64,000 nucleotides of DNA, from positions 166,328-230,327 of the forward strand of contig JANLFQ010000003.1 in assembly GCA_024653355.1 (NCBI GenBank), in the 5' to 3' direction. The translations under genes and the position numbers were made by a program. The notes under the pieces are model-generated. The model saw only the letters and a list, made by a program, of their open reading frames with translations. It did not search any database and had not been told where the DNA came from. Source of the stretch: a candidate division WOR-3 bacterium (GTDB taxonomy: Bacteria > Hydrothermota > Tepidihabitantia > Tepidihabitantales > Tepidihabitantaceae). Shown here one piece after another: positions 9,464 through 64,000 of this stretch (the stretch's first letter is position 1; each line of letters opens with the position of its first letter).

Positions 9464-10255
9464 TTAACGGTGCAGATTTCTTTTCAGCCGTAATGCCGGT
9501 GCGGCGTTTAATCCCCGGGATTGGTCAAGAGAAACGGTCGTGTCAATGTACATTGTTGCCCGGATAAACGCCTCCTTTGCACCAATCGAGTCACCGATAA
9601 ACTCGGCGGCAACGCCGAGGTTGTTCAGGATTGCGCCGGCTAAATCGGCAGGGGATGGTGTTAGAGTAGAAAGTGAGCGCTCTGCCAAGCGGTAATAGAA
9701 AAGGGCGCTTTCGGGATAAGAGTAGTACTGGAAGATGTAACCAGTGTTGAATGCCAGCCAGCCGGTGATACAGGATGCGGCGCGCCCGCTAAGGGCGTGT
9801 GTCAGTTCAAGACCTTTTTGAAATTCAACGAGCGCCGATTGAGGTTGCGCAAGTTCATTGTAGGAGAAACCGATATATCCATAAACCACCGCCTGACCTA
9901 TTGAGTCTTTTCTTAACTCTTTTTTCTGCAAGAGTTTTGTTAACCGGGCGATGGCGTCCCGCAACTCACGATTTTCAATCATAGTATCGATTGACACCAG
10001 CTGCCGGTTCAGTTCCGGGGAAAGGAAGGTGCGAACGGTGGTGTCAATGTACACCTTGCCCAGCATTCGGGTGTAAGCGCTGAGGTCTACTTTAGTCAAT
10101 TCGGCTGTTTTTCGTCCGGGCTCACTTTTGGGTGGCTGGGAAAGAATCCGGCTGAGGAACAAAAGGATGACCAGGACAACAACACCGACCGTAACCCAGA
10201 GCCACAGATTGCGCAGCGAGAGCCCGGGGTTTGGCTTTTTGGGCTTTTTCGGCAC
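9464..10255 (-). CDS. Membrane-anchored TPR-like protein
   Basis: 263 residues, function not recognised. A very basic N-terminus (PKKPKKP) is followed by one transmembrane helix at about residues 17-36 (LWLWVTVGVVVLVILLF), so the rest is probably periplasmic. The soluble part contains helical pairs resembling tetratricopeptide repeats (GYIGFSYNELAQPQSALVEFQKGLEL, shortened here; and YYRLAERSLSTL), which usually mediate protein contacts. The hexapeptide YIDTTV occurs twice, near residues 69 and 235. The gene converges on priA with a 10-base gap. GTG is used as start because a strong promoter ends five bases upstream of it. Confidence 0.7.
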   Translation of the reverse strand: MPKKPKKPNPGLSLRNLWLWVTVGVVVLVILLFLSRILSQPPKSEPGRKTAELTKVDLSAYTRMLGKVYIDTTVRTFLSPELNRQLVSIDTMIENRELRDAIARLTKLLQKKELRKDSIGQAVVYGYIGFSYNELAQPQSALVEFQKGLELTHALSGRAASCITGWLAFNTGYIFQYYSYPESALFYYRLAERSLSTLTPSPADLAGAILNNLGVAAEFIGDSIGAKEAFIRATMYIDTTVSLDQSRGLNAAPALRLKRNLHR

Positions 10256-10260
10256 GCCGA

Positions 10261-10288
10261 ATTTTAATCTAACTAACTTTTATGTCAA
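10261..10288 (-). promoter_or_regulatory. Sigma-70-type promoter of the TPR gene, leaderless spacing
   Basis: On the minus strand the -35 box TTGACA (10283-10288) and the -10 box TAAAAT (10261-10266) are 16 bases apart. Only TCGGC lies between the -10 box and the GTG start at 10255, leaving no room for a ribosome binding site. Confidence 0.75.
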
Positions 10289-10959
10289 TGTTGTGGCAGA
10301 TGTCAAAAACGGCAATTCGGATGGCACTCCACAATGCAACCGAATGAAAGAGTAACCGGTAACTATTCAATGGTATTTAATTTTGCCGAAGTGTTGCAAG
10401 AGGCTGTTTTCTGGGCATTATAAAGCGGTGCAATCCATCTTCAGGCTCGACTTTTCTGAACCCTGTATGCTGGCCGGTTCAGTTGTGTTCTGGTTCACAG
10501 GGGTTAGATGTTGTGATGGGTATAAGTTTAACTACTGCTGTATTGGTAAGTTGTTAGCATTATAAAATATCGCTCATCATCACACCGGTTAGGGCTCGTT
10601 AATTCATTCTGAAAGCGGTTCATCAGTTCAATCCCGGACACACTGGCAGAACCAATCCCTGAGTCGCTCCCCGAGCGGTTTCCTAAGACAGATAAGGACC
10701 GACTCAATGATTGAGTTACCCAACCCTTTTCCCTATTCTATCCGAAATAGGGTGATGGGTGATTTTAACATAGGTTTAGTATGCTAATTTACTGGTTTTT
10801 AACGGGTTAACATCACAGTCAGTATCTGTTGCCACCTAATCTTTTACCATTTCAACCGTTTGCTGTTTTTTCCCGGATTGTTGTCGGGGTTTTCTGACAA
10901 GAAGGATGGAGTCTGGAAATAACATCGGTATGATATTGTTTTTATAAAGTGCTGACCCC
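10289..10959. other. Long intergenic spacer with several hairpins
   Basis: No convincing gene. The two small open frames here lack any start signal and look like chance. Structured elements are visible: a 7-bp stem CTGAACC/GGTTCAG (10456-10462 with 10476-10482), a 15-base perfect hairpin ACTCAAT-G-ATTGAGT (10702-10716), and a 7-bp stem CCCTATT/AATAGGG near 10730-10751. A 23-base element at 10661-10683 recurs in the spacer at 62053-62075. It could hold a small RNA. Confidence 0.4.
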
Positions 10960-10988
10960 TTGACTTTTGGTATATTTTTCGGTATAAT
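10960..10988 (+). promoter_or_regulatory. Promoter of nfnA-nfnB
   Basis: TTGACT (10960-10965), 17-base spacer, TATAAT (10983-10988). Transcription would start near 10995, giving a leader of about 70 bases before the TTG start at 11066, which is served by AAAGGAGG at 11053-11060. Confidence 0.85.
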
Positions 10989-11065
10989 GCCAATCAATTT
11001 ACTGGTTATTTTAGTGAGAGCGAAAATAAGGAATAGTTTTTTGTTTTATCCCAAAGGAGGAATTT

Positions 11066-11926
11066 TTGGTTAAGATTTTGAAAAAGCGCCAGTTAGCGCC
11101 ACAAATTAAGATGTTAGAACTGGATGCACCCGAAATCGCCCGCAAGGCACAGCCCGGGCAGTTTGTTGTCGTTAGGGTCAACGAAGAGGGCGAAAGGATA
11201 CCTTTGACTGTGGCGGATGCGCTTCCCGAGCAAGGGGTTCTGGTTATTGTTTTCCAGGAGGTTGGTAAATCGACGATGCTTCTGGGCACGCTTGAAGAGG
11301 GCGAGGCGATTCTGGATTTGATTGGACCGCTGGGAAAGCCAAGCGAAATTGAACGGTTCGGGACGGTGGTGTGTGTTGCCGGCGGGGTCGGAACACCGGA
11401 GATTTTTCCTGTTGCCCGGGCGTTGAAACAAGCGGGTAATCGGGTGATTTCAATTATCGGATTTAGAAGTCGGGAACTGGTTTTGATGGAGGAAAAGATG
11501 CGTGCGGTTTCCGATGAGTTGATTGTGGCAACTGACGACGGTTCTTACGGCGTTAAAGGTTTTGTCACCGATGTATTGCGGGAGGTATTGAATCGGGGCG
11601 AAAAGGTGGATAGATGTTTTGCCGTTGGTCCGGTAATAATGATGAAGATGGTTTCCCTGCTCACCAAAGAGTATGGCGTGCCGACAGTTGTAAGTTTAAA
11701 TCCGATAATGCTGGATGCGACCGGGATGTGTGGTGTGTGCAGGGTTGAGGTCGGTGGTGAGACAAAGTTTGCCTGTGTGGACGGTCCGGAGTTTGATGGC
11801 CATAAGGTAAATTTTGACCAGTTGATGGCACGGTTGAGGACCTATGTTAATGAGGAGAAACAGGCGGTAGAGTTATTCCTTAAATCCCGTAATTGTGGTT
11901 GCGAGAAAGGAACTGTCCGTGGCTAA
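11066..11926 (+). CDS. nfnA: NADH-dependent ferredoxin-NADP+ oxidoreductase small subunit (NfnA / SudB-like)
   Basis: FAD and [2Fe-2S] subunit of the cytoplasmic electron-bifurcating complex that balances NADH, NADPH and reduced ferredoxin. It is also annotated as a sulfide dehydrogenase subunit. The protein has an N-terminal flavin-binding barrel (QPGQFVVVRV), an NAD-binding domain (CVAGGVGTPEIFPVARAL), and a C-terminal cluster loop with MCGVCRVEV and a following Cys (FACVDGPEF). Length of 286 is normal. The start is TTG, chosen for the strong Shine-Dalgarno sequence five bases upstream. It overlaps nfnB by eight bases, as in many anaerobes. Confidence 0.9.
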   Translation: MVKILKKRQLAPQIKMLELDAPEIARKAQPGQFVVVRVNEEGERIPLTVADALPEQGVLVIVFQEVGKSTMLLGTLEEGEAILDLIGPLGKPSEIERFGTVVCVAGGVGTPEIFPVARALKQAGNRVISIIGFRSRELVLMEEKMRAVSDELIVATDDGSYGVKGFVTDVLREVLNRGEKVDRCFAVGPVIMMKMVSLLTKEYGVPTVVSLNPIMLDATGMCGVCRVEVGGETKFACVDGPEFDGHKVNFDQLMARLRTYVNEEKQAVELFLKSRNCGCEKGTVRG

Positions 11927-13427: not shown

Positions 13428-14375
13428 ATGAGTAGAAGCGACATTGTCCGCCGGTTACGGAAAAGGAAAATCGGCGTTCTGATGGGAGGCTGGTCGAGCG
13501 AAAGGGAGGTTTCGCTCCTTTCGGGCCAACGGGTTCTGGAATCTTTGAAAAGGCAGGGTTATCAGGCGGTCGGGATTGATATCAACCGGAGTTTTGTCGA
13601 CCAGATACGCCAGGCAAAGATTGATATGGCGTTTGTCATACTCCATGGCCGGCCCGGTGAAGATGGAACGATGCAGGGTTTTTTAGAACTCCTGGGAATT
13701 CCCTATACCGGTTCCGGGGTTACCGCATCGGCGATTGCGATTGACAAAGTGTTCACGAAGATGCTTTTCCGACAGATTGGTATCCCGACGCCGGATTTTG
13801 TAAGTGTTGGTAAGGATGATGATGTTGCTGAAGGGTTAGCCGCGGCGGAGAAACGTTTCGGGTATCCGATGATTGCCAAACCGCGCTGCGAGGGTTCGAG
13901 CGTGGGAATTGAACTGCTCGAAGGGAAACGGGGCGCACTGGACCGATGCGAGCGGGTCTGGCGCGGTTTTAGTGAGATGCTCATCGAACCTTTTATCGAT
14001 GGGATGATTGCCACGGTGGGGATAGTTGGTGACCAGGTGTTACCAATTCTCGAACTGGTTCCCAAACAGCAGAAGTTTTACAGTTATGAGGCAAAGTACA
14101 TTCGGGGCGAAACCGATTTTATTGTACCGGCGCGGCTGAGCAGCCGGGTTGAGGCGAGAATTAAAGAATTGGCGATAAAGGCGTATCGCGAACTGGGTTG
14201 CAAAGGTTTCGCCCGCCTTGACTTAATTGTTAAGGACGGTCGCCAGCCTTACTTTCTTGAGGTGAATACCCTTCCTGGATTAACCGACATTTCCGACCTA
14301 CCGGTGCAAGCCGAAGCGGCCGGAATTACTTATGACGACCTGATTTTCCGGATTCTGGCGGATGCCTTAGAGTGA
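13428..14375 (+). CDS. ddl: D-alanine-D-alanine ligase
   Basis: ATP-grasp enzyme making the D-Ala-D-Ala dipeptide for peptidoglycan. Near the start is the Ddl signature GGWSSEREVSL, followed by HGRPGEDGTMQG (a variant of HGxxGEDG), the ATP-grasp segment KPRCEGSSVGIEL, and the Mg2+-binding end ARLDLIV...FLEVNTLPG. Length of 315 is typical. An AGGAGGTG ribosome binding site lies just before ATG 13428. The cell-wall partner alr lies 30 kb away at 44.1-45.3 kb. No murein gene is adjacent, and the 110-base gap to nfnB suggests its own promoter, which I could not define. Confidence 0.93.
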   Translation: MSRSDIVRRLRKRKIGVLMGGWSSEREVSLLSGQRVLESLKRQGYQAVGIDINRSFVDQIRQAKIDMAFVILHGRPGEDGTMQGFLELLGIPYTGSGVTASAIAIDKVFTKMLFRQIGIPTPDFVSVGKDDDVAEGLAAAEKRFGYPMIAKPRCEGSSVGIELLEGKRGALDRCERVWRGFSEMLIEPFIDGMIATVGIVGDQVLPILELVPKQQKFYSYEAKYIRGETDFIVPARLSSRVEARIKELAIKAYRELGCKGFARLDLIVKDGRQPYFLEVNTLPGLTDISDLPVQAEAAGITYDDLIFRILADALE

Positions 14376-14400
14376 CGGTAAACGATGGTGTTGGTATTTC

Positions 14401-14428
14401 TTGACTGAGAGTAATTTATGAATAAGAT
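14401..14428 (+). promoter_or_regulatory. Promoter of the rplR-secY operon, leaderless spacing
   Basis: TTGACT (14401-14406), 16-base spacer, TAAGAT (14423-14428). The ATG of rplR begins only eight bases later at 14437. This promoter decides the start among TTG 14428, GTG 14431 and ATG 14437. Confidence 0.75.
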
Positions 14429-14436
14429 TGGTGATT

Positions 14437-14784
14437 ATGATTCGTGACCGAAAGTTAAGAAGGCATTTAAGTATCCGGCACCGGATTTCCGGAACGCCGG
14501 AGCGACCCCGGTTGTGTGTTTTTCGGAGTAACCGGCATATGTATGCCCAGTTGATAGACGACACTACCGGTCGGGTGCTAACCGCGGTTTCCAGTTTAAC
14601 TCCGGAGTTAAGAGACAAAAAAGGGAAACCCACTGAGATGGCGCTTGAGGTGGGTAAACTGGTTGCCGCAAAGGCGAAAGAACGGGGAATAACAAAAGTT
14701 GTTTTCGACCGCGCCGGTTATCGCTACCATGGCCGGGTGAAGGCGGTGGCTGAAGGAGCGCGCCAAGGAGGTCTGGAGTTTTGA
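14437..14784 (+). CDS. rplR: 50S ribosomal protein L18
   Basis: 5S-rRNA-binding protein of the large subunit. It has a basic N-terminus ([17 protein letters not shown]), the conserved [16 protein letters not shown] strand and a C-terminal [13 protein letters not shown]; 115 residues. In most bacteria L18 follows L6 and S8 inside the spc operon. Here it is the first gene, preceded by ddl and its own promoter, so the operon has been cut just before it. The start at ATG 14437 is set by the promoter eight bases upstream. It overlaps rpsE by four bases. Confidence 0.95.
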
Positions 14785-29428: not shown

Positions 29429-29501
29429 AGCCGGCGGCCCGGCTCGAACGGGCGACCTGCGGTTTACGAAACCGCTGCTCTGCCTGCTGAGCTACGCCGG
29501 C
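29429..29501 (-). tRNA. tRNA-Thr (anticodon CGU)
   Basis: On the minus strand a full cloverleaf folds: acceptor GCCGGCG/CGCCGGC, D arm GCUC/GAGC, anticodon stem GCGGU/ACCGC with loop UUCGUAA, T arm GCCCG/CGGGC with UUCGAGC. The anticodon CGU reads ACG (Thr). Discriminator is U and CCA is not encoded. A consensus promoter lies just upstream. Confidence 0.95.
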
Positions 29502-30128: not shown

Positions 30129-31604
30129 TTATGGCAGGCGAACCAACCGTTTGATTGTCGGCGGTGTAGTTTGAATGCGGGCGAAGTAGGTTCCGGCAGG
30201 AAGATGGCGCAAATTGATGAGCGAACCGGGCGTAACGGTCTGGGCTAACACAGGGCTACCAGAGATGTTAAACAGGGTAATGGTTATTGATTGTTCAAGA
30301 GAGCGTTCAGAGATTAGTCGGACCGATGAATGTGCCGGGTTGGGGACGAAAGATATGTCTGATAGAACTTTGCCTGTTTGCTCAGTGATGCCGGTGCCGA
30401 TGACGATGAAGGTGTCGGGTTGCGTGGTGACAGGAGCCATTCCGTCGGAAAAACGGAAGTAGAATTGATGCGAGCCCGGGGGAAATCCGGAACGCCTGAT
30501 TGAAAAGACAACGCCATTTGCATACTTATGGCTTGTTGGAATCAGGTTGAATGTGTTGTCGTCAACTATGACGGTGCTAATTGGTGGTAAGTTGGTGTCG
30601 GTGTCGATATAACGAACGTTGAACCAGAAGGGGGTGGTTTCTTCTCCGGTGTCGGGTATGACCCGGGCGTTGGTGAGTTGGGGTGGCGCATTTTGGTTAA
30701 CAGTAAATGCTGGTGTTCGATTGGCGTAGAAACGGCAGGGCACAGTCGTATCGCGAACATAACTGCCACCAATGGGATAAACCGCCTGGGTAACAGCCGC
30801 CGCATAAAGGTAGCCAGACGAGTTAGGCCAGGGTCCAAATCTACGGTCGGCGGTAAATCGTGATATCGGACAGCGAAGGGAGAGGAGGTTACCGTTGGTC
30901 TGGGCTTCGATATCCCCGACCCGTTCGTACGACTGGGTATAACGGTTGATGGCGTAGAGACCGGTGGTGTAGATTGTAAGGATGTTGGCATAACTCATTA
31001 CGAAGATGAAGGTGTCAGAAGGTGCTTCGGGGTTGACAAAACCCAAAGAGTAGATGTAATAAGGTTGCGGGAATGTGTAGGTGGGCCAGCTGTTATGGTT
31101 GTTGCGGAGACGGGCGTAAAAGTAGTCGTTAGAGCGGGAAACCCAGGCGCCAGTAAGGTCTAACCAGGGTCCTTCAGGTTGGATGGCATCACCAACGGTC
31201 TCGGCAGCGACCGATGCCAATAGCGCCGAGCCCGGTGGCCAGATGTTGTCAATGTTGAAAGGCGAGTACGTGGCATATCCTGATTCATCGGCAGCGCGGA
31301 TGTAATAATAAACGTTACCAGATACCGGCGCGACAAGGGACGTTTGCCAGGTGCTTTCGTATCCGGGTGCGGTGAGACGGGTCATAATTGCTTCCTGCCA
31401 GGAGTTTTGGCCGTCAAGAGAGTAAAAAAGTGTTACCGTTGAGTTCCGGTTTTCTGTTTGGGGGGCAAAATGGCAGTCGACATTGATAAATACCGTTTGT
31501 GCGGGAGCAGGCGCTGAGTTGCAAACGGCGGATAATGTCGGTTGTGCCGCGGCGATTTTCAAGAAGATGAGGGTTGACAGTCCAACGGCTCGGGTTATGA
31601 GCAT
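30129..31604 (-). CDS. Secreted protein with type IX secretion-like C-terminal sorting domain
   Basis: 491 residues, exported. The N-terminus from ATG 31604 (MLITRAVGLSTLIFLKIAAAQ) is a good signal peptide, and a promoter ends five bases before it. A longer frame from 31706 would bury this signal and is rejected. The body is beta-rich, with a fibronectin-like stretch near residues 40-110 (VTLFYSLDGQNSW, YYYIRAADESGY) and a second near 310-400. The last 75 or so residues match the Por/T9SS type A pattern: FVPNPAHSSVRL, ITLFNISGSPV, LPAGTYFARI and final KRLVRLP. Substrate or function is unknown; cell-surface display or release is inferred. Confidence 0.78.
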   Translation of the reverse strand: MLITRAVGLSTLIFLKIAAAQPTLSAVCNSAPAPAQTVFINVDCHFAPQTENRNSTVTLFYSLDGQNSWQEAIMTRLTAPGYESTWQTSLVAPVSGNVYYYIRAADESGYATYSPFNIDNIWPPGSALLASVAAETVGDAIQPEGPWLDLTGAWVSRSNDYFYARLRNNHNSWPTYTFPQPYYIYSLGFVNPEAPSDTFIFVMSYANILTIYTTGLYAINRYTQSYERVGDIEAQTNGNLLSLRCPISRFTADRRFGPWPNSSGYLYAAAVTQAVYPIGGSYVRDTTVPCRFYANRTPAFTVNQNAPPQLTNARVIPDTGEETTPFWFNVRYIDTDTNLPPISTVIVDDNTFNLIPTSHKYANGVVFSIRRSGFPPGSHQFYFRFSDGMAPVTTQPDTFIVIGTGITEQTGKVLSDISFVPNPAHSSVRLISERSLEQSITITLFNISGSPVLAQTVTPGSLINLRHLPAGTYFARIQTTPPTIKRLVRLP

Positions 31605-31609
31605 AGAAA

Positions 31610-31639
31610 ATTTTATCCCAAAACGACAATAGTGGTCAA
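31610..31639 (-). promoter_or_regulatory. Promoter of the secreted T9SS-like gene, leaderless spacing
   Basis: Minus strand TTGACC (31634-31639), 18-base spacer, TAAAAT (31610-31615). Only TTTCT separates it from ATG 31604. Confidence 0.7.
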
Positions 31640-31694: not shown

Positions 31695-31722
31695 TTTACA
31701 TCGCACCGAAATTTGTTATTAT
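31695..31722 (+). promoter_or_regulatory. Promoter of the peroxiredoxin operon
   Basis: TTTACA (31695-31700), 16-base spacer, TATTAT (31717-31722). The ATG at 31758 follows 35 bases later and has its own AAAAGGAGGAG ribosome binding site. Confidence 0.6.
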
Positions 31723-31757
31723 TAGTATTAGTAGGAGACAACCAAAAGGAGGAGCAG

Positions 31758-32432
31758 ATGGAAAACAACACCGAAAGAAGAAGTATGCCCCTTTTAGGGG
31801 ACGATTTTCCCGAAATCAAGGTGCCGACAACGCACGGGCTGATAGAACTGCCGAAGTTCTTTGCCGGCAAGTGGTTTGTGTTATTCAGCCACCCCGCCGA
31901 TTTTACGCCGGTGTGTACGACGGAATTTGTTGCCTTTCAAAAGCGCTACGATAAATTTCGGCGTCTGAACTGTGAACTAATCGGTTTGAGTGTTGACCAG
32001 GTGTTCTCTCATATCAAGTGGGAGGAGTGGATTAAAGAGAAACTGGGCGTTGAGATTGAATTTCCGATTATCGCCGATACGGGTCGTGTTGCCAGTATGT
32101 TAGGGTTAATTCATCCTAATAAGGGGACGAATACGGTTCGGGCGGTTTTTGTGGTTGATGACCGGGGTAAGATTCGGATTATTCTTTACTATCCCCAGGA
32201 GCTGGGACGAAATATGGACGAAATTTTGCGGGCGGTTGAGGCGATGCAGATTGCCGATAAGTACAAGGTGGCAATGCCCGCAAACTGGCCCAACAATGAA
32301 CTCATTCAGGACCGGGTGATTGTGCCGCCGGCGAGCGATGTTAAGACCGCAAAAGAGCGGTTAGAAAAGGCAAAGGCGGGCGAATTTGAGTGTTTTGATT
32401 GGTGGCTCTGCCACAAGAAGTTAAACCGATAG
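31758..32432 (+). CDS. Peroxiredoxin (Prx6/AhpC-like)
   Basis: Thiol peroxidase reducing H2O2 and organic peroxides. The peroxidatic Cys is in FTPVCTTEF (about residue 48), and the long C-terminal arm typical of archaeal and anaerobic Prx6-type enzymes is present. That arm carries two more cysteines close to the end ([12 protein letters not shown]), which can resolve the active-site Cys. 224 residues from ATG 31758; the earlier frame start at 31713 lies before the ribosome binding site. It is followed after 11 bases by a ferritin-like gene, so the pair probably handles peroxide and iron together. Confidence 0.92.
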
Positions 32433-32751: not shown

Positions 32752-32778
32752 TTGTCCGCGTGATATTTTCAGTATAAT
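32752..32778 (+). promoter_or_regulatory. Promoter before the coiled-coil gene, leaderless spacing
   Basis: TTGTCC (32752-32757), 15-base spacer (short), TATAAT (32773-32778). ATG 32788 starts nine bases later with no ribosome binding site. Confidence 0.55.
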
Positions 32779-32787
32779 TTGTCCTCT

Positions 32788-33330
32788 ATGACAATTCCGG
32801 AAGAAGAGAAACAGACAGGCGAAGATTCGAGCCGGACGGAACCCGCTTTCTGGCAAAAACCGGCATTTTTTATTCCGGTGGTGGCGTTTTTGCTTCTGGT
32901 GCTGACCCTAGCGGTGATTGTGGTTGTGAAGAATGCCGGGCGGGTACAGATTGGGCCCGCGCCGGTCCCTCAGGCGCCAATTTTGCCTGACACGACGATG
33001 GGTCGGGTGCGGCGACAACTGGCGCGGGGTATTAAGAGACTGGAGCGGCGGTTACAAGAGTATCGGGGAAAAATTGAGACCCTATCTTTCTATCAGGATT
33101 CACTTTACAAAAGTTGCAGTCTGGGGTTGAAGCAACTGGCGATTGAGTTCGCTGCGGTGGAGAGTGCTCGTTCCTATGCAGAGCGTAAACCCCTTTTTAC
33201 TAGGGCAAGAAAGATGTATGTGGAGTTGCGTAATAGTGTCAACGACTTTGCCCTTTCGGTTGATTCGGCAATTACCGGTCGAGTTCTCGACTCTTTGGAC
33301 CAGGAGTTCCGTAAGTTGATCAGCGAATAG
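32788..33330 (+). CDS. Single-pass membrane protein with coiled coil, function unknown
   Basis: 180 residues. A short acidic cytoplasmic start is followed by one transmembrane helix (about residues 28-46, FFIPVVAFLLLVLTLAVIVVV), a proline-rich linker (APVPQAPILP), then a charged helical region (about 70-180) with heptad spacing, such as RRQLARGIKRLERRLQEY. No domain recognised. It is six bases upstream of purL and probably co-transcribed with it, which does not by itself suggest a role. Confidence 0.65.
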   Translation: MTIPEEEKQTGEDSSRTEPAFWQKPAFFIPVVAFLLLVLTLAVIVVVKNAGRVQIGPAPVPQAPILPDTTMGRVRRQLARGIKRLERRLQEYRGKIETLSFYQDSLYKSCSLGLKQLAIEFAAVESARSYAERKPLFTRARKMYVELRNSVNDFALSVDSAITGRVLDSLDQEFRKLISE

Positions 33331-38743: not shown

Positions 38744-38753
38744 ATCGAAATTG

Positions 38754-38781
38754 ATTTTAGGACCGGGGAGAGTAAAATCAA
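38754..38781 (-). promoter_or_regulatory. Promoter of the DUF2703 gene, short leader
   Basis: Minus strand TTGATT (38776-38781), 16-base spacer, TAAAAT (38754-38759). Ten bases to ATG 38743, no ribosome binding site. Confidence 0.65.
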
Positions 38782-38798
38782 GGCCTGATTCTAAATTC

Positions 38799-38826
38799 TT
38801 GATTATCACCGTGGGCGGTGTAAGAT
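38799..38826 (+). promoter_or_regulatory. Promoter of carbamate kinase, leaderless spacing
   Basis: TTGATT (38799-38804), 16-base spacer, TAAGAT (38821-38826), then seven bases to ATG 38834. The same -10 sequence is used before rplR. Confidence 0.7.
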
Positions 38827-38833
38827 TAGTAAT

Positions 38834-39769
38834 ATGTCAATAACGGTGGTTGCGATTGGCGGTAATTCCCTTATCAGGGATAAGGAGCGAAGTTCATTTG
38901 CCGACCAGCTGGCGACATTGAAGAGCAGTTGTCAACCGATTGCGGAGATGGTTCGGCGGGGTGAGCGGGTTTTGATTACCCATGGCAATGGGCCGCAGGT
39001 CGGGTTTGTGCTGTTGCGCTCCCATCTGGCAAGGATGCGGGTGCCCGAAATTCCGCTTGATGCGGCGAACGCCCAGACCCAGGCGGAGATTGGGTATATG
39101 ATTCAACAGGTTCTGGACAATGAGTTCCGGCAGATGGGGATTGAAAGGCGGGTGGTGACGGTGGTGACACAGGTGGTGGTTGACAACCAGGACCCGGCAT
39201 TTTCTTTTCCCGCCAAGCCCGTAGGGCCATTTTACACCCGAGAGGAGGCGGTGCGCTTGCAGCGGGAATTGGGCTGGGTTTTGAAGGAGGATGCCGGGCG
39301 GGGTTTTCGGCGGTTTGTGCCCTCACCAATGCCACGGGCGATTGTTGAGATTGAGGAGATAAAACGGCTGGTTGAGGCGGGTGCGGTTGTTGTTGCCTGT
39401 GGTGGTGGCGGAATACCGGTTGTGGAAGAAAACGGTAGTTTGCACGGGGTTGCTGCGGTTATTGACAAAGACTTGGCATCGGCCCTTCTTGGTAATTTGG
39501 TCGGGGCAGAGCGGCTGGTAATCTCTACGGCGGTGGCGCAGGTTTATCTGCATTACGGGATGCCTGATGCCCAGCCATTGACAAAGGTGACGGCGGCGGA
39601 GATGGCAGGTTATTTAGCCGCCGGCCATTTTCCTGAGGGTAGTATGGGACCCAAGGTCAGTGCCGGGCTTAACTTTCTTAAGAACGGCGGCAAAGAGGTT
39701 TTCATAACCGACCCGGAACATATCCTCGCCGCAGTTGAAGGAAAAGCCGGGACAACGATTGTGCCATAG
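38834..39769 (+). CDS. arcC: Carbamate kinase
   Basis: Transfers phosphate between carbamoyl phosphate and ADP, usually making ATP during arginine or purine breakdown. Amino-acid-kinase family motifs: AIGGNSLI at the N-terminus, THGNGPQVGFVLLRS, VVACGGGGIPV and VIDKDLASALL. 311 residues, typical. No arginine deiminase or ornithine transcarbamylase is nearby, so the source of carbamoyl phosphate is unknown. The neighbouring genes are a conserved unknown, DUF89 and hypC, all on the same strand with 1-7 base gaps; HypF-type maturation also uses carbamoyl phosphate, which may be a coincidence. Confidence 0.92.
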   Translation: MSITVVAIGGNSLIRDKERSSFADQLATLKSSCQPIAEMVRRGERVLITHGNGPQVGFVLLRSHLARMRVPEIPLDAANAQTQAEIGYMIQQVLDNEFRQMGIERRVVTVVTQVVVDNQDPAFSFPAKPVGPFYTREEAVRLQRELGWVLKEDAGRGFRRFVPSPMPRAIVEIEEIKRLVEAGAVVVACGGGGIPVVEENGSLHGVAAVIDKDLASALLGNLVGAERLVISTAVAQVYLHYGMPDAQPLTKVTAAEMAGYLAAGHFPEGSMGPKVSAGLNFLKNGGKEVFITDPEHILAAVEGKAGTTIVP

Positions 39770-41856: not shown

Positions 41857-41857
41857 T

Positions 41858-42606: not shown

Positions 42607-43655
42607 AAGCGCGCAAAGAATTCTTCTATCTTATTGATAATGACATCCTGTTCGGCATCTGTCAAGTTATGTCTGATGGGCAGGCAGACGATTTCGCGGC
42701 TTGCCTTTTCGGCGACAGGAAAGGACTGGTCGGTGAATAGCGAGGCGAACTCTGGTTGGCGGTGAATCGGGTGGGGGTAGTAAACCATCGTCTGGATACC
42801 GGCGGCAAGCAGAAAGTTGCGGAGTTTGTCGCGGTGCGGGGTGAGCAGAGCGAACTGGTGATAGTTGACGGTGCTGGCTGGTGCCGAACCGACGATGCGC
42901 ACATAGCGTCCGAGTGCTGCCCGGTAGCGGGCGCCAAGATACCGGCGCCGGGCAAGCCAGCGGTCCAGATGGTTTAACTTTACAAGTAAAAAAGCGGCCT
43001 GCAGTTCGTCGAGCCGTGATGAAGTAGGACAGGCAATCGGTAGATGGGAACTGGCGATTGCACCGCCGTTGCCCAGTGCGCCAAGGTTTTTGGTGGGGTA
43101 GAAACTGAAGGTGGCGATGGTGCCGAAAGAGCCCAGTTTTTTTGTTCCGAAAGTTGCGCCTATTGCCTGAGCAGCGTCCTCAATTAAAAAGATGTTGTTG
43201 CGCTGGCAGAGGGCGGTAAACCGGTCGAGGTCGGCACAGTTACCGAAAAGGTGGACCAGGACAATTGCTCTGGTCCGGGAGGAGATTTTCTCTTCGACCG
43301 CTGAGGGTGAAAGACAGAGTGTTTCCGGTTCGATGTCCGCCAGGACCGGCTGGGCACCGGTTCTTAAAATCGCCTCCACGGTGGCGGGAAAGGTGAACGG
43401 AGTGGTGATGACTTCGTCTTTTGGTCCGATGCCCAGCGCCTTCAGCCCGTAAAACAGGGCGTCGGTGCCGCTTTTGACCCCGACAACCTGCGGTACACCA
43501 AGGTAAAGGGCAAGGTTCTGTTCGAATCTGGTTAGTTCCGCGCCCAGGACGAATCTGCCCGATTCGAGGATACGGGTAAGCGCCTTTTCAAACTCCGGTC
43601 CAAACTCAAGGTTTTCTGATTTCAGGTCGTAAAACGGAATGCGGAGAAAATCCAT
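42603..43655 (-). CDS. DegT/DnrJ/EryC1/StrS family PLP aminotransferase
   Basis: 350 residues. Transfers an amino group to a nucleotide-linked keto-sugar, usually for LPS, capsule or glycoprotein. Key parts: GVKSGTDALFYGLKALGIG, DAAQAIGATFGTKKLG and the PLP lysine in FYPTKNLGALGNGG (about residue 185). The substrate-binding C-terminal half is normal. A promoter lies seven bases before ATG 43655. It is co-transcribed with the PTS IIA-like gene, an unusual partner. No other nucleotide-sugar gene is close. Confidence 0.88.
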   Translation of the reverse strand: MDFLRIPFYDLKSENLEFGPEFEKALTRILESGRFVLGAELTRFEQNLALYLGVPQVVGVKSGTDALFYGLKALGIGPKDEVITTPFTFPATVEAILRTGAQPVLADIEPETLCLSPSAVEEKISSRTRAIVLVHLFGNCADLDRFTALCQRNNIFLIEDAAQAIGATFGTKKLGSFGTIATFSFYPTKNLGALGNGGAIASSHLPIACPTSSRLDELQAAFLLVKLNHLDRWLARRRYLGARYRAALGRYVRIVGSAPASTVNYHQFALLTPHRDKLRNFLLAAGIQTMVYYPHPIHRQPEFASLFTDQSFPVAEKASREIVCLPIRHNLTDAEQDVIINKIEEFFARL

Positions 43656-43662
43656 TCTTTAG

Positions 43663-43690
43663 ATTGTAGCCCGGAAAACAGTTGAGGCAA
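43663..43690 (-). promoter_or_regulatory. Promoter of degT, leaderless spacing
   Basis: Minus strand TTGCCT (43685-43690), 16-base spacer, TACAAT (43663-43668), seven bases before ATG 43655. Confidence 0.65.
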
Positions 43691-44107: not shown

Positions 44108-45272
44108 TGTGGAGCAGGGTTTTGATGTGGGTGACTTTACCGTCGCTGAAATAAATTCGGGGCACGCGCGGGCTGACTCGGCAGATGATTTCGTAGGGGA
44201 TGGTACCGGCAAGGAGGGCGAGTTCATTGGCACAGATTTTCTTGCCATCAGCGGCGCCGAGCAGGGTTACGGTATCACCCAATTTTGCCTCGGGGATGTC
44301 GGTGACATCGAGCATCGTCAGGTCCATTGACACATTGCCGACGACCGGCGCTTTTTTGCCGTGTATCAGGCAGTAGCCGCGGTTGGTCAAGGAGTGCGGG
44401 TAGCCATCACCATAGCCGACCGAGATGACAGCAATCCGGGAAGGTCGAGTGGTGAAGTAGGTCCGTTCATAACTGACCGAGGTGCCCGCCGGGAAATGAC
44501 GCAGGTTGACGATGCGCGAGCGCAGGCTCATTACCGGTTTCAGATTGAGGGATGAGCGGCGGTGGCCAAAATGGTAACTCAACGGCATTATCCCGTACAG
44601 GACAAGACCGGGCCGCACCATATCGAGGTGTGCTTCCGGGATGTTCAGGCAGCCGGCAGAGTTTGCCGCATGGCGCAGAAACCCCTGGACGCCTTTCTCC
44701 GCCAGTTGTGCAAGGAGTCTGTTGTACGATTTGACCTGGTATTGGGTGAACAGGATGTCGGTGTCCGCTGCCGGGAAATGGGTGAAGATGCCGGTGAGTT
44801 TGATGCCTGGTAACTGGACGACCTGGGTGATGAAGTCAAGCGCTTCGGTGACGCTCACGCCGGTTCTGCCCATACCGGTGTCCACTTCGATGTGGAACGG
44901 AATGACGGTGTTGTGGGCGATTGCCTGCTCTGATAGTGCCCGGGCAAAGGTCAGTTCGGTTACCGTTGGTGTGAGGCGGTGTTCAATCAGTTCCGGAATT
45001 CCTTCCTCGGGCACCGGGGAAAGTATCAGGATGGGTGTTTCTTTTACACCGGCGAGCCGGCAGGAAACCCCTTCCTCAATGCTGGCGACACCGTAGGCGT
45101 CAACCAGCCGGTAACTGGCGCGGGCGATTTCGCGCAAGCCATGGCCATAGGCGTCGGCTTTGATGGCGAACAGAAGCTGGCGGTTGCCGATTTCCCGCCG
45201 TACTTCACTGATGTTGTGTTTTAAGGCGTCAAGGTCAATTTCTGCCCAGACCCTGCCAAAGTGATTCTCCAT
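44100..45272 (-). CDS. alr: Alanine racemase
   Basis: PLP enzyme making D-alanine for peptidoglycan; works with ddl at 13.4 kb. The N-terminal barrel starts RVWAEIDLDALKHN, with the PLP lysine in FAIKADAYGHG (about residue 37), and the second-domain Tyr in the segment SVGYGDGYPHSLTN. 390 residues from ATG 45272. The frame is open to 45401, but the start chosen lies eight bases from a -10 box and gives the standard N-terminus. Confidence 0.93.
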   Translation of the reverse strand: MENHFGRVWAEIDLDALKHNISEVRREIGNRQLLFAIKADAYGHGLREIARASYRLVDAYGVASIEEGVSCRLAGVKETPILILSPVPEEGIPELIEHRLTPTVTELTFARALSEQAIAHNTVIPFHIEVDTGMGRTGVSVTEALDFITQVVQLPGIKLTGIFTHFPAADTDILFTQYQVKSYNRLLAQLAEKGVQGFLRHAANSAGCLNIPEAHLDMVRPGLVLYGIMPLSYHFGHRRSSLNLKPVMSLRSRIVNLRHFPAGTSVSYERTYFTTRPSRIAVISVGYGDGYPHSLTNRGYCLIHGKKAPVVGNVSMDLTMLDVTDIPEAKLGDTVTLLGAADGKKICANELALLAGTIPYEIICRVSPRVPRIYFSDGKVTHIKTLLHNE

Positions 45273-45280
45273 CGGTAAAG

Positions 45281-45308
45281 ATATTAAGGAAAAATGGTTA
45301 ATGGTCAA
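45281..45308 (-). promoter_or_regulatory. Promoter of alr, leaderless spacing
   Basis: Minus strand TTGACC (45303-45308), 16-base spacer, TAATAT (45281-45286), eight bases before ATG 45272. Confidence 0.7.
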
Positions 45309-53684: not shown

Positions 53685-55583
53685 ATGCATTTTGTTGTCG
53701 GTACTGCCGGACATATTGACCACGGGAAAAGTGCGCTGGTAAAGGCGTTGACCGGGACCGACCCGGACCGGTTGAAAGAGGAGCAGGAACGGGGGATGAC
53801 AACCGATTTAGGATTCGCCTTCTTAGGTGACGATATTACGATTATTGATGTCCCGGGGCACGAGAAGTTTGTGCGGCATATGTTAGCCGGTGCGAGTACA
53901 ATCGATTTGGTAATGCTGGTGGTGGCGGCTGATGATGGTGTTATGCCGCAAACCAGGGAGCATTTTGAGATTTGCCGGCTTTTGGGGATTAAAAAAGGTC
54001 TGGTGGTTTTAAACAAGATTGACCTTGTGGATAAAGATTGGCTGGAGATGGTGCGGCTGGATGTTCAGGAACTGGTGCGGGGTTCTTTTCTGGAAGGGGC
54101 ACCGGTGGTTGCGGTTTCGGCGCGAACCGGTGCAGGAATTGAGGAGTTAAAAAGGGTTCTTTATCAGGTAACCCAGACGGTTGAACCGAAACCGGACCGT
54201 GGTGTGTTTCGCTTGCCGATTGACCGTTGTTTTACAATAAAAGGGTTTGGCACGGTGGTGGCAGGCACGGTACTTTCAGGAAGTTGTCGGGTTGGAGACC
54301 GTCTGGAACTTTTGCCCCAGGGGATAGAGGTGCGGGTGCGAGGCATCCAGCGCCACAATAAACCGGTTGAGACTGCCGTGGTGGGCGAACGTGCAGCCTT
54401 GAATCTTCAAGGGGTGGAAGTTGATGCGATTGAGCGGGGTAATATTCTATCAACCCCGGGTTATTATCGTCCGACAACGGTGTTTAACGGTTCGCTTTAC
54501 CTGTTGAAGGATGCGGGTAAGCCGTTGCGCAATATGACGCGGGTGCATCTTCACATCGGGACTGCGGAGGTGATGTGCCGCGTTTGTCTCCTTGACCGCA
54601 AGGAACTTTTGCCCGGTGAAGAGTGCCTGGTACAAATCCGGACCGAAGGTCCGGTGGTGTGCGATTGGAACGACCACTATGTGATTCGGCACTACTCACC
54701 CCAGCAGACAATCGGGGGTGGTGTTGTACTCGAGGCGCAGGGTGAGAAGGTGCGCCGGTTTGATGATGAAACATTGACCCGGTTGCAGGAGTTAAAATCT
54801 GGTAAACGGGGTGCGGTCCTGGAGCAGTTTTTGCTCAAGTCCGGGTTTGATGTCAAAACAGTGGCAACAATCTGCCGGGAGCTGGCATTAACCGAAGCGG
54901 ACGCCCGGTTGATGGCCGATTTTCTTGTACAACAGGGGAAGGCACGCTGGGTTGAATGGGAAGGAAAGGAGTATTTGATACTGGAGCGGGTGATTAACGA
55001 TGGGTTAGAAAGAGTTAAAGCGGTGTTAGCAGAGTTTCATCAGACGAATCCGCTTCGGGTCGGCATGAAACGGGCTGAGGCACGGGCGAAGTTGGCTCAG
55101 CCGCCAGTTTTGTTTGAGACCCTGGTCAGGATGTTAAAGGAACAAGGGGTGGTTTATGAGGAAGGGGACCGGTTGCGCCTTGCCAGCCATCAGGTAAAAT
55201 TGAACCCACAAGAGCAGGCGATTTTCGAGAAGGTGACGCGGGAGATTAAACAGGCAAAATGGCAACCGCCTGATGTTGATGAACTTTTTGCCGGAGTGGA
55301 AAAGAAACTTGCGGAACGGGTGAAGATGGCACTGCTGGAAACCGGGGAGATTGTGGATGTTGGCGAAGGCGTGCTGCTGCATTCCGAAATTGTTGCGGAA
55401 GCGGAAAAGGTATTGAAGGATTTTTTTACAAGGAAGCCAGAACTGACCGCCTCAGAGTTCAGGCAGGCACTGGGTACCACCCGAAAGGTGGTGATTCCGC
55501 TTTTGAACTATTTTGACCGAATTGGTTTGACCCAGCGCCGGGGTGATGTGCGGGTGCTAAGGCAAAGCAAAGAGCCAAAATAA
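53685..55583 (+). CDS. selB: Selenocysteine-specific elongation factor SelB
   Basis: GTPase that brings Sec-tRNA to UGA codons, guided by a SECIS hairpin. G motifs are [28 protein letters not shown] and NKIDLVDKD. Domains II and III follow (about 175-340), then winged-helix repeats at the C-terminus (about 380-632) for SECIS binding. 632 residues, standard length. It is nine bases upstream of selD, which itself needs Sec insertion. selA and tRNA-Sec are not in the window. Confidence 0.95.
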
Positions 55584-55591
55584 AGAAGTGT

Positions 55592-56626
55592 ATGGCAAAA
55601 AGCGGAATACTTGCAACCGTGACCTGCGCCGGTTGAGCGTCGAAACTGAGTAAGGCGCAGTTGGCGCAGGCATTAGCCGGGCTGGAACAGCCCGAGGACC
55701 CAAGACTGCTGGTTGGCATCAATACGGCAGACGATGCTGGGGTGTTTCTGCTTTCGGACGGCGTAGCACTGGTGCAAACGGTTGACATGCTCACGCCGAT
55801 GGCGGAAGACCCCTACATTTATGGCAGAATTGCAGCCGCAAATTCGCTTTCCGATGTTTATGCAATGGGCGGTGAGCCGTTGACCGTGCTCAACATCGTG
55901 GGATTCCCGGCAGCGATGGATAAGACCATTCTGCGGGAGATTTTACGCGGCGGGCAGGATACGGTGAAACAGGCGGGTGCGGTTGTTGTTGGCGGGCACA
56001 CCTTTAATGAAAAGGAGATTAAATACGGACTGGCGGTAACCGGACGCATTGACCCGCAGCGGATTGTCACCAATGCCGGGGCAAAGTTAGGCGATGTTCT
56101 TGTGTTGACCAAACCGCTGGGCATTGGTGTTTATACCCAGGCGTTGATGACCCTGGACCAGGTAGACCCGGTTTTTGAGCAGGCGGCGCTGGATTCAATG
56201 ATGCGGCTGAACCGGGACGCCGCAGCGATAATGGTTGCCTGTGAAGCCGATGCCGCAACCGACATCACCGGTTATGGACTTCTCGGCCACACCCAGGAGA
56301 TGGCAGAGGCTTCGGGCGTGAGGATAAGGATTTATGCCGAGCGAGTGCCGGTTTTGCCCCGGGCAAAAGAACTGGCGAAAACTTTTATTGACCCCGGTGT
56401 TTTGATGAACGAAAACTCATTTGGCAAACAGGTGGAATGGAAAGGTTCCTTGCCCGATGAGATTAGAAATCTGCTCTGGGAGTCGGAAAGTTCGGGCGGG
56501 CTTCTCGTGGTGTTAAAGCCGGAAAAGGTGGCGATGTTTCAGAGTCGGGCTAAAGCGGCGGGGATTGTTGCACCAATTATCGGTGAAGTTGTTGAGGGGC
56601 AGCCCGGGACAATTGAAGTGATTTAA
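55592..56626 (+). CDS. selD: Selenophosphate synthetase containing selenocysteine (in-frame TGA)
   Basis: Makes selenophosphate from selenide and ATP, the selenium donor for Sec-tRNA. Reading from ATG 55592 gives MAKSGILATVTCAG, then TGA at 55634-55636, then ASKLSKAQLAQALAG; the TGA falls exactly at the catalytic Cys/Sec position of SelD (CAG-U-A-K pattern). After it the frame stays open to 56626 through NTADDAGVF, VVGGHTFNE and TDITGYGLLGHTQ. Total 344 residues with Sec, normal. A gene caller that stops at TGA would begin wrongly at TTG 55661. selB directly upstream and the hairpins at 55624-55694 support recoding. Confidence 0.93.
55624..55694 (+). promoter_or_regulatory. Candidate SECIS hairpins at the selD TGA
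   Basis: CTGCGCC (55624-55630) pairs perfectly with GGCGCAG (55654-55660), enclosing the TGA at 55634. The overlapping copy GGCGCAGG (55663-55670) can pair eight bases with 55623-55630 instead. A second hairpin, CGGGCT/AGCCCG with a GGAAC loop, lies at 55678-55694. Which form SelB reads is uncertain. Confidence 0.5.
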
Positions 56627-58674: not shown

Positions 58675-58686
58675 GTTGACCTCCTT

Positions 58687-60542: not shown

Positions 60543-60567
60543 GATAGGTCGATGTTTCACTTTTAAC

Positions 60568-61719
60568 TCAGATAAAAAGCGCCAGCCCAAGAGCAGCGAT
60601 AAGCCCGAGTGCGCTGCCGAATAAAAATGGTGCCCGGGGTCCGAACAGGCTCCAGAGCCCGCCGGCGATGAGCGATGCGGGTAAGAGCCCGATACCGGTA
60701 AGGGTGGCATGTAAGCCGATGAAAGTAGCCCTTTGTTCTTCGGGTGCGAGGTCGGTTACAAGCGCTTTTTCCTGCCCTTCGGTCAAGGCGCTGAAAAGTC
60801 CATAAACGGCAAACAGGATGTAGGGAAGGACCGGTAGACTTTCCGGTTTGAGAAAGGCGAAGCCCGAATAGACCAAGCCATAAATCCCATAGCCGATAAC
60901 CAAAAGGCGTTTTCGGCCAATTTTATCGGACAGCCGGCCCGCGGGGTAAGAGAAAACTGCGTAGGTGATGTTGTAGATAAGGTAGAGGAGAAGGACCGAG
61001 ATGGTCGTCCAGCCGATATTTTTCATTCTTAACAGAAGGAAACCGTTTGAGGAGTTGCCCAGGGCGAAACAGGTAACGATGATGAGAAAAGAGCGCAGTT
61101 TTGGGGTAAGACATTTCCAGGTTATTCTGAGTCGCGCGGGCGCACAAAGCGCCGCCTTCTTTTCCCGAACAAAAAAGAGGACAACGACCCCTAAAAACGC
61201 CGGGATTAATGACAGAAGAAAAATCCGCTGAAAGTCCGGCGGGGTAAGGTTTGCACCAAATCGCGATGTAAGGTAGATGGCGAGCAGAACACCGAACACG
61301 GCGCCAAGAGTGTCCAGGGCGCGGTGAAGGCCAAACGCCCGGCCTCTTGTCGTCGCAGTTGTGCAGTCGGCGATGAGCGCATCGCGCGGTGCAACTCTGA
61401 TTCCTTTGCCGATGCGGTCAATCATCCGACCGGCAAAAACCATACCCCAGTTTTGCGACAAATAGAGTAGCAGTTTCCCGATGGTTGAACCGGAGTATCC
61501 CAAAATCGCAAGCGGTTTGCGGCGTTGCAGGCGGTCGGATATTGTTCCGAAAAACACCTTGAGAATTGAGGCGGTACTTTCGGCAAAACCTTCAATAAGG
61601 CCGAGGACCGCGGGTTGGGCGCCAAGTGTGGCAAGATACAGCGGAATCAACGGGTATACCATTTCGGTGGAGATGTCGGTTAAAAGGCTGGTAAAACCGG
61701 TGATAATGATATTGAACAT
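60568..61719 (-). CDS. MFS transporter
   Basis: 383 residues with 12 predicted helices. The family loop motif between TM2 and TM3 reads GTISDRLQRRKPLAILGY, and the matching motif in the second half is GRLSDKIGRKRLLVIGYGIYG (in part). An acidic helix start (TDISTEMVYPLIPLYLATLG) is common to drug- or sugar-type permeases of the YfcJ/UhpC-like group. Substrate unknown. Stands alone; promoter 13 bases upstream. Confidence 0.85.
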   Translation of the reverse strand: MFNIIITGFTSLLTDISTEMVYPLIPLYLATLGAQPAVLGLIEGFAESTASILKVFFGTISDRLQRRKPLAILGYSGSTIGKLLLYLSQNWGMVFAGRMIDRIGKGIRVAPRDALIADCTTATTRGRAFGLHRALDTLGAVFGVLLAIYLTSRFGANLTPPDFQRIFLLSLIPAFLGVVVLFFVREKKAALCAPARLRITWKCLTPKLRSFLIIVTCFALGNSSNGFLLLRMKNIGWTTISVLLLYLIYNITYAVFSYPAGRLSDKIGRKRLLVIGYGIYGLVYSGFAFLKPESLPVLPYILFAVYGLFSALTEGQEKALVTDLAPEEQRATFIGLHATLTGIGLLPASLIAGGLWSLFGPRAPFLFGSALGLIAALGLALFI

Positions 61720-61732
61720 TGGTTGAAAGTTA

Positions 61733-61760
61733 AGTTTAGGGTTGCAGGGATGGCTGTCAA
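61733..61760 (-). promoter_or_regulatory. Promoter of MFS gene, very short leader
   Basis: Minus strand TTGACA (61755-61760), 16-base spacer, TAAACT (61733-61738), then 13 bases to ATG 61719 without ribosome binding site. Confidence 0.65.
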
Positions 61761-62189
61761 GCTACAAACTCCGGGATTTGGGACTTTGTGTCCGTCAGTT
61801 AAATTGAAACGGCGATTGCGCTGTCAGCAAAAAGGTCTACCCTGGGGGTAGAAACTTCCAATACAATCAGGAACAGTCTGGTTATGTTAACTTGATGATG
61901 CACGGCCAAAGTGAGGGCAGGAGGAGAAGGTTATTGGGCGGTTGAGAGAAAATTTAGGGGTCCAGGGATATGCGATTGCACAGTTGATGTTGAAGGTTAT
62001 TAGCGGATAACGGTTAAAACTACCCTGATAAGGGTTCAGGGAGCCGTTCTGGGAGCGACTCCCTGAGCGGTTACCCGATTCAGTTGGCGAACGCTTTTAA
62101 GGACCCGGTCAGAGAGGGAAATTGGTGGGTTCTTAATAAAGATAACCGGTAGTCCATTAAAAATTATCAAGTTTGACTGTGTTGGATTG
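61761..62189. other. Intergenic spacer with hairpin and repeated element
   Basis: No gene seen. A 7-bp hairpin TCTACCC-TGG-GGGTAGA lies at 61836-61852. The 23-base element at 62053-62075 shares 18 positions with 10661-10683, and TAAGGACC follows in both (62098-62105 here). It may be part of a divergent regulatory region. Confidence 0.4.
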
Positions 62190-62218
62190 TTGACTTGTAA
62201 TTCATTTTCCGCTATAAT
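62190..62218 (+). promoter_or_regulatory. Promoter of FG-GAP protein, leaderless spacing
   Basis: TTGACT (62190-62195), 17-base spacer, TATAAT (62213-62218); GTG 62227 follows eight bases later. Confidence 0.75.
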
Positions 62219-62226
62219 TGGAAACG

Positions 62227-64000
62227 GTGGTTGCGGAAGGAAAAGTAGGGATACTACTCGTTTTGTGTTTTACTGCCTTATTTTCGGCAGAAAGTTCCTT
62301 TACACAATTTAATCGGGTGTGGACGGAAAGTCGGGTTGAAGACTTTGCCGATGGCCAACTCGACCCGATGATGTATGTGTCCCGGCGCACGGTTGCGGAA
62401 CCGGATTCGGGCTGTATTGAATTCTTTTCCCGTTTTGACCTGGATAACAATGGCTATTTTGACCTGGTAAGTTCTGATGACTCAGGACCGTATCTGCGGG
62501 TTTATTTTGGTTCGGCATCGGGCTACAGTGTGGCGAATAGCCGATACTATCCTGTGCCCGGCGGCGGAAATGTTGACCTGGCGGATTTAAATCTTGATGG
62601 GTACGCCGAGCTGATTCACTCGGGCTGGCGGAGCGGACATATTACAATTTACTGGGGAACAGATTCCGGACCTTCACCGGTCGATACCACCTGGCTGGTG
62701 ATATCGGGTCAGAGCGAGGCGGTTACGGTTTACGACCTGGACCGGGACGCTTATCTTGACATCATTGCCGGGTCAGACAACGGAATGGTTTATATCTTCT
62801 GGGGTGATGCCAATGGGTATAACAGCAGCCGTCGTTCCAGCATCTTTTTGAACGGTTCAGTCGGACACAATCTTGAAGTGGCTGATTTTGATAAAGATGG
62901 GTTTGGTGATATCGTGGCGTCACTCTGGAGCAGGAATCAGGCACCGGTTATTTACTGGGGTTCGGGTCGTTCTCCCCAGAGAATAGTGTGGCTGCCGGTT
63001 TCGGGAAATAATCCTCACGGCGTCACGGTCGCGGACCTGAACGACGACTCCTGGCTCGATTTGGTGTTTACCGGTTACGACACCGTGACCTCGGCTTTTA
63101 TCTACTACGGCAGCGCGAGCGGCTTTTCAGTGAGCAACCGTGAAATAATTCATCCCGGTCAATGCTACGGAGGGAGCGCCGCGGTTTTGTGGAATTACGA
63201 CAAGACGCTGGACCTGGTCTTTTATCGGGGTGACTGGGGAAAAAATGTGGCTTATCGGCCGCGTGTCTATTTTAACCGACCCGATACCACGCCCCATTTC
63301 AGTGATGCCCGTTTCAGCGAAATTGGGGAACTGGAATTCAACGCCTCGGGCGGTCTTATTGCCGATTTAAACTACGACGGGTTTCAGGACATATTTATCA
63401 ACAATATGATGCCCGACAGTGCCAGTTTTGTCCTCTGGGGTCCATACTACAACTCCGCAACTCCGCTTCCGGTTGACCGGGACCATCACGGTTTATGGCG
63501 CGAAGTGGGTAATATTTACACCCGGGGCTTTTATGCCCGCTATCTCTCTTCAATTTATTATATAGGGGAAGATTCAGTTATTGCCGGTGGTAGTTGTTCC
63601 TGGGTTGCGAATGAGCCACTTGGCTCTTCGGTTGGGATTGAGGTGCGGGCTGGCAATACGCCTGTACCGGACGAAACCTGGACCGAATTTACACCAATTC
63701 TAATTAACGGCGGTAGCCTGCCCCAAACCGTAAACGGATTCAAGTATCTTCAGTACAGGGCGTTTTTCTCATACTCTCGACCCTGTTATTTACCCTATCT
63801 GGAGCGGGTGAGCTTTAATATAACTCTGCGCCCGCCCATTGATGCGGCGGTGCGGGCGATACTGGCACCGGTGGGAATAGTGGATTCCGGTAGTGTGATT
63901 GTGCCGCGGGTGGTGATTGAGAACCTGCACTCAGGTACACCGGTGGCGACGGTGACCCTTAAAGTCGGGGACGATTACCTTTCGACGCAAATTGATACTC
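62227..64000 (+). CDS. Secreted FG-GAP/VCBS repeat protein, 3' partial
   Basis: Open to the right edge (591 codons visible). A signal peptide (KVGILLVLCFTALFSAE) is followed by at least six FG-GAP-type repeats with Ca2+-binding Asp loops: DLDNNGYFDLV, DLNLDGYAELI, DLDRDAYLDII, DFDKDGFGDIV, DLNDDSWLDLV and DLNYDGFQDIF. These build a beta-propeller of the integrin-alpha type. From about residue 530 a new domain starts (IDAAVRAILAPVGIVDSGSVI, in part) of the CARDB/immunoglobulin-like kind. Such proteins are often T9SS cargo; any sorting tail lies outside the window. GTG 62227 is set by the promoter. Confidence 0.85.
   Translation, partial: MVAEGKVGILLVLCFTALFSAESSFTQFNRVWTESRVEDFADGQLDPMMYVSRRTVAEPDSGCIEFFSRFDLDNNGYFDLVSSDDSGPYLRVYFGSASGYSVANSRYYPVPGGGNVDLADLNLDGYAELIHSGWRSGHITIYWGTDSGPSPVDTTWLVISGQSEAVTVYDLDRDAYLDIIAGSDNGMVYIFWGDANGYNSSRRSSIFLNGSVGHNLEVADFDKDGFGDIVASLWSRNQAPVIYWGSGRSPQRIVWLPVSGNNPHGVTVADLNDDSWLDLVFTGYDTVTSAFIYYGSASGFSVSNREIIHPGQCYGGSAAVLWNYDKTLDLVFYRGDWGKNVAYRPRVYFNRPDTTPHFSDARFSEIGELEFNASGGLIADLNYDGFQDIFINNMMPDSASFVLWGPYYNSATPLPVDRDHHGLWREVGNIYTRGFYARYLSSIYYIGEDSVIAGGSCSWVANEPLGSSVGIEVRAGNTPVPDETWTEFTPILINGGSLPQTVNGFKYLQYRAFFSYSRPCYLPYLERVSFNITLRPPIDAAVRAILAPVGIVDSGSVIVPRVVIENLHSGTPVATVTLKVGDDYLSTQIDT

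Follow-up and report, generated by a model that had tools for sequence, protein, structure and literature searches.

We examined how genes begin in a 64,000-nt stretch of DNA, hereafter the window, which spans positions 166328-230327 of contig 3 in the 1.88-Mb genome of a candidate division WOR-3 bacterium. Its SecY is 71-75% identical to that of the closest candidate division WOR-3 records. It had been proposed from the sequence of the window that ten transcription units have a -35 and a -10 box placed so close to the start codon that their messages would be leaderless or nearly so. The first genes of these units encode a TPR protein, ribosomal protein L18 (rplR), a secreted protein, a coiled-coil protein, a DUF2703 protein, a carbamate kinase (arcC), DegT, Alr, an MFS protein and an FG-GAP protein (Table 1). 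An independent scan for TTGAC with at most one mismatch, a spacer of 15-18 bp, TANNNT and an open reading frame (ORF) start 4-14 nt further on recovered promoters at all ten, with the spacings of the original prediction. The units had also been said to lack a Shine-Dalgarno (SD) sequence, and indeed none of the ten carries an AGGA, GGAG or GAGG 4-mer inside the SD window. At the coiled-coil gene two overlapping -10 boxes can be read, TATAAT with a 15-bp spacer and 9 nt to the start, or TAATTT with a 17-bp spacer and 7 nt. The label "near-leaderless" suits spacings of 8-11 nt but is doubtful for the MFS gene; since its spacing of 13 nt falls outside the genome-wide peak at 5-11 nt described below, a leader of about 6 nt is probable there.

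The start codons used here were often not those of the longest ORF, as at rplR, alr and the secreted protein. For the last of these the ATG was taken instead of a longer GTG start at 31706, and the N-terminus that results is signal-peptide-like. In-frame stops lie eight codons upstream of the TPR gene start and one codon upstream of the degT start. The start of arcC matches those of solved carbamate kinases, and that of degT matches solved homologues. A second class of genes, with longer leaders and good ribosome-binding sites, had been named for comparison; this description fits nfnA, the peroxiredoxin gene and hpf (Table 1); adk has only a GGAG.

Two of the loci are worth noting on their own account. 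The secreted protein (30129-31604) carries a C-terminal Por_Secre_tail domain, the sorting tag of type IX secretion, here in a WOR-3 genome. The DUF2703 gene and arcC form a divergent pair (38743-38836): only some 17 bp separate their -35 boxes, and each start is leaderless or near-leaderless.

Table 1 Promoters and start codons in the window. The number after n is the spacer between the hexamers; the distance in nt runs from the -10 box to the start codon.
Feature	Position	Strand	Elements
TPR gene leaderless promoter	10255-10288	-	TTGACA (10288-10283), n16, TAAAAT (10266-10261), 5 nt, GTG 10255
nfnA promoter (contrast)	10960-11068	+	TTGACT n17 TATAAT (10983-10988), long leader, AAAGGAGG, TTG 11066
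rplR (L18) leaderless promoter	14401-14439	+	TTGACT n16 TAAGAT, 8 nt, ATG 14437
Secreted Por-domain protein, leaderless promoter	31604-31639	-	TTGACC n18 TAAAAT, 5 nt, ATG 31604
Peroxiredoxin (contrast class)	31713-31760	+	AAAAGGAGGAG before ATG 31758
hpf (contrast class)	ATG 32444		GGGGAGG upstream of start
Coiled-coil gene, leaderless/near-leaderless promoter	32752-32790	+	TTGTCC, overlapping TATAAT/TAATTT, 7-9 nt, ATG 32788
DUF2703 near-leaderless promoter	38743-38781	-	TTGATT n16 TAAAAT, 10 nt, ATG 38743
arcC leaderless promoter	38799-38836	+	TTGATT n16 TAAGAT, 7 nt, ATG 38834
degT leaderless promoter	43653-43690	-	TTGCCT n16 TACAAT, 7 nt, ATG 43655
alr leaderless promoter	45270-45308	-	TTGACC n16 TAATAT, 8 nt, ATG 45272 (not longer TTG 45401)
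MFS short-leader promoter	61719-61760	-	TTGACA n16 TAAACT, 13 nt, ATG 61719
FG-GAP leaderless promoter	62190-62229	+	TTGACT n17 TATAAT, 8 nt, GTG 62227

Promoter positions and start codons across the genome

The distance between promoters and start codons was then determined over 861 kb, consisting of 40 stretches and the window and covering about 46% of the genome, in which genes were called with a codon model. Strict promoters (TTGAC, 17-18 nt, TANNNT) were located with start codons ignored during the search. Among the 178 that lie upstream of genes, 82 have an in-frame ATG or GTG 5-11 nt past the -10 box. Such codons occurred 85 times in frame as compared with 19 times in the other two frames together (binomial P ~4e-24), and the spacing has its mode at 6 nt and a second peak at 8 nt. 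With a relaxed -35 box there were 256 promoters, 108 in-frame occurrences and 28 in the two other frames, which gives a net value of about 94 leaderless genes among 669 called as a lower bound. A peak of -10 boxes just upstream of starts, which the original prediction had expected from a genome-wide motif search, is thus found even when the search is blind to the starts. Genes inside operons showed no TANNNT -10 peak. The pattern is that expected of a genome with widespread leaderless transcription: the -10 box stands about 6-7 nt before the start, at first genes only, and the starts are ATG or GTG.

The same script was applied to 250 kb of Escherichia coli K-12, where 1 of 30 promoters had a start at 5-11 nt, no peak was seen and TANNNT at the leaderless place was below expectation. 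In Deinococcus radiodurans MP1, the positive control, a search with TANNNT only gave a peak at exactly 6 nt; the TTGAC pattern failed in this genome, where it found only three promoters.

The two classes of first genes that had been proposed were both found, and they differ in their start codons. At spacings of 5-8 nt the leaderless starts are ATG in 38 cases, GTG in 25 and TTG in one (n = 64), whereas SD-led starts are ATG in 140, GTG in 33 and TTG in 30 (n = 203; Fisher P 0.003 for TTG). The frame test likewise showed no enrichment of TTG as a leaderless start. When the first six possible starts after each of the 96 other strict promoters were considered, 73 promoters had an SD 4-mer, typically AAAGGAGG, before one of them; as six candidates were allowed per gene, this count includes some chance matches. 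The 16S rRNA has the tail GGATCACCTCCTTT and ends ...GGATCACCTCCTTTCTA, and the anti-SD is therefore intact. Between the hexamers a spacer of 16 bp is far commoner than one of 17 bp in both genomes compared, that of the window (G000) and G030, at leaderless and other promoters alike.

Conservation in the WOR-3 phylum

In 29 of 30 WOR-3 genomes, the window's included, alr is preceded by a -35 box and, after a spacer of 16-17 bp, by TANNNT, with the start codon another 5-10 nt away. Protein identity in this set falls as low as 48% and the spacers have wholly diverged in sequence, yet TTGAC is exact in 28. At rplR the same layout is found in relatives from the window's order (families f1, f2 and f5). 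In other orders rplR follows directly after the upstream gene, several times with a GGAG- or GGGGG-like site, and it therefore seems that the window's order acquired a leaderless promoter within the spc operon. The conservation at alr and rplR shows that the spacing between the -10 box and the start is under selection. In the window a D-Ala-D-Ala ligase gene precedes rplR (13428-14784) and the spc ribosomal operon is broken at this point.

To compare genomes we counted TTGAC-17/18-TANNNT-5/7-ATG and, as a control, the reversed pattern. Each of the 60 nearest relatives (60/60) has 58-306 matches, as compared with 0-15 for the reversed pattern; because this control is near zero but compositional only, the comparison of frames and the E. 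coli control were added. A search with a ParA-like peptide for plasmids, intended as further control replicons, gave no match. Thirty-five other genomes, reached through the records of the SecY search, have 4-33 matches; they include Eisenbacteria, KSB1, Marinimicrobia, Chlorobi, Hydrothermota and one WOR-3-named record (G097). When neighbours were pooled by group, most showed no -10 peak in what were small samples centred on secY. The exceptions, each with few genes, were Marinimicrobia (1.7-fold) and a delta-proteobacterial group (6-fold).

Across the 147 genomes of the phylum, the window's class and families f11, f12, f15, f16 and f28-f33 have high counts of the TTGAC pattern; counts are lower elsewhere and fall almost to background in f17 and f20-f24. 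For f22, a loss of leaderless genes as the cause of such low counts is ruled out by genome G135, which has a strong -10 peak at the leaderless place without TTGAC. In the stretches sampled from it (L210-L229), a large proportion of first genes has a TANNNT box 5-9 nt upstream of the start. This box reads TTTAAA[A/C]T and has no recognisable -35 partner. It is also present before some inner genes of G135, 8% having it at 6 nt, and a translational role for the box is possible. The fixed trait of WOR-3 could conceivably be the leaderless geometry, with the promoter code changed in f22 and selection acting more strongly on the spacing than on the sigma-factor motif, an idea we hold only tentatively and at less than even odds. 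Loss of ribosomal protein S1 or S21 was considered as a cause of leaderless genes and rejected, since nearly every relative searched has both proteins, and the machinery thus shows no reduction of this kind.

Interpretation and rival explanations

We propose that this genome runs leaderless and SD-led initiation side by side, and we give this reading a probability of about 0.92. The two in silico predictions, of a genome-wide peak of -10 boxes just before start codons and of two classes, both hold. In the proposed scheme the housekeeping sigma holoenzyme would recognize TTGAC, a spacer of usually 16 bp and TANNNT, and would start the RNA on the ATG or GTG or 1-5 nt before it. Such a message would have no room for an SD sequence. 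By analogy with mycobacteria and Deinococcus, its 5'-terminal ATG or GTG would be bound directly by the ribosome, probably as a 70S particle with initiator tRNA, as described for known leaderless systems (PMC9031893). At the remaining first genes, which may start with ATG, GTG or TTG, a leader tens of bases long would carry a strong AAAGGAGG SD, and genes inside operons would depend on an SD or on overlap with the preceding gene. Promoter geometry, reading frame, the start-codon rule, the SD class, the intact anti-SD and conservation are seen directly in the DNA, from which we infer where the RNAs begin and how the ribosome binds them.

Three other explanations were weighed, and they fail because of the fixed -35 box, the frame contrast and the conservation. 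The A+T-rich box might not be a promoter element but an A/U-rich, S1-type ribosome-binding signal as proposed for Bacteroidetes and the FCB group. S1 is present, and FCB genomes have been described with A+T-rich non-SD sites (PMC9581028). However, the box is paired with TTGAC at a fixed 16-17 bp, which a ribosome signal would not need, inner genes are without it, and TTG is excluded at the leaderless place yet used by SD-led genes. Nor is SD largely absent, as it is in the Bacteroidetes type: leadered genes have strong SD sequences and the anti-SD is intact. We regard this explanation as very improbable. An equally slim chance is given to the view that the true starts lie downstream, so that the ATG or GTG near the -10 box is fortuitous and the leaders are ordinary. 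The start codons here are predicted rather than experimentally set, which leaves room for this view; against it stand the excess of in-frame over out-of-frame codons, the agreement of the arcC and degT starts with solved homologues, the conservation of the alr and rplR starts together with their promoters, and the absence of SD upstream of the ten. That the ten cases are chance picks from many A+T-rich upstream regions is the least probable of all: they were chosen from roughly two dozen units and 2.3% of arbitrary ATGs carry such a promoter match, but shuffled upstream regions of the same ten units gave a mean of only 0.51 matches per ten (maximum 4 in 2000 rounds), and a peak at the same spacing is present in an independent sample of the genome and in relatives.

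Several points nevertheless weigh against side-by-side leaderless and SD-led initiation. It is read from DNA alone, and since genes were called with a simple codon model, the leaderless fractions are rough. The -35 boxes of arcC, degT, DUF2703 and the coiled-coil gene, four of the ten in the window, are weak and match TTGACA at only four of six positions. Where the spacing is 8-13 nt, a leader of 1-6 nt may remain. At spacing 8 a purine occupies the canonical +1, the seventh base after the -10 box, in only 16% of 25 cases, and these small numbers suggest that the transcription start shifts to the next bases. At spacing 5 a purine stands just before the start codon in 21% of 24 cases. Few as they are, and with multiple looks uncorrected, the cases suggest that a pyrimidine-purine start rule steers initiation onto the start codon or one base before it.

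The proposed coexistence of leaderless and SD-led initiation has known counterparts. In mycobacteria the leaderless class makes up about a quarter of the genes whose primary start has been mapped, and in Mycobacterium tuberculosis this class was defined as -5 to +5 nt (PMC3898074), a range that fits the spacings of about 5-11 nt seen here. An ATG or GTG at the 5' end is both required and enough in mycobacteria, while TTG is unused at that end and works behind an SD (PMC4633059). The WOR-3 genome resembles M. tuberculosis and M. smegmatis in that its predicted leaderless starts are ATG or GTG only, TTG is among the SD-led starts and an SD class coexists. It differs in belonging to an unrelated phylum, in a G+C of about 51%, in its strong -35 TTGAC with a 16-bp spacer and in the nature of the evidence, which here is DNA. 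For Deinococcus-Thermus about 40% of genes were predicted to be leaderless by Zheng et al. 2011 (PMC3160421). TANNNT 6 nt before the start is common to that phylum and WOR-3, but WOR-3 has a much more distinct -35 box. The mixture of leaderless and SD-led first genes is also that of the leaderless class of GeneMarkS-2, which was predicted for 21.6% of the bacterial species surveyed (PMC9581028). Leaderless-rich bacteria are therefore already well known; the predicted phylum-wide case in WOR-3 would be new, as a literature search that fell short of most subscription papers found no link between leaderless messages and WOR-3.

If so, the bacteria that seem to depend heavily on leaderless messages gain a whole uncultured phylum, one distant from both Actinobacteria and Deinococcus-Thermus. 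The presence of the same ATG/GTG-only rule in it is relevant to the question whether leaderless initiation is an ancestral trait or arose repeatedly. Many first genes of WOR-3, among them rplR, alr and the gene for the secreted protein, are likely to be given wrong starts when these are called by longest ORF or SD; promoters in the phylum can be read directly from start codons. The lineage with another promoter-like box at the same spacing offers a natural comparison for studying the switch.

Two further features of the window were recorded. A gene for a SelB-type elongation factor is followed by an AIR-synthase-like gene, a selD candidate (53685-56626), which suggests that selenocysteine is used; gene calls may miss TGA-containing genes. 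The sole Rfam match in the window is one tRNA gene on the minus strand (29429-29501).

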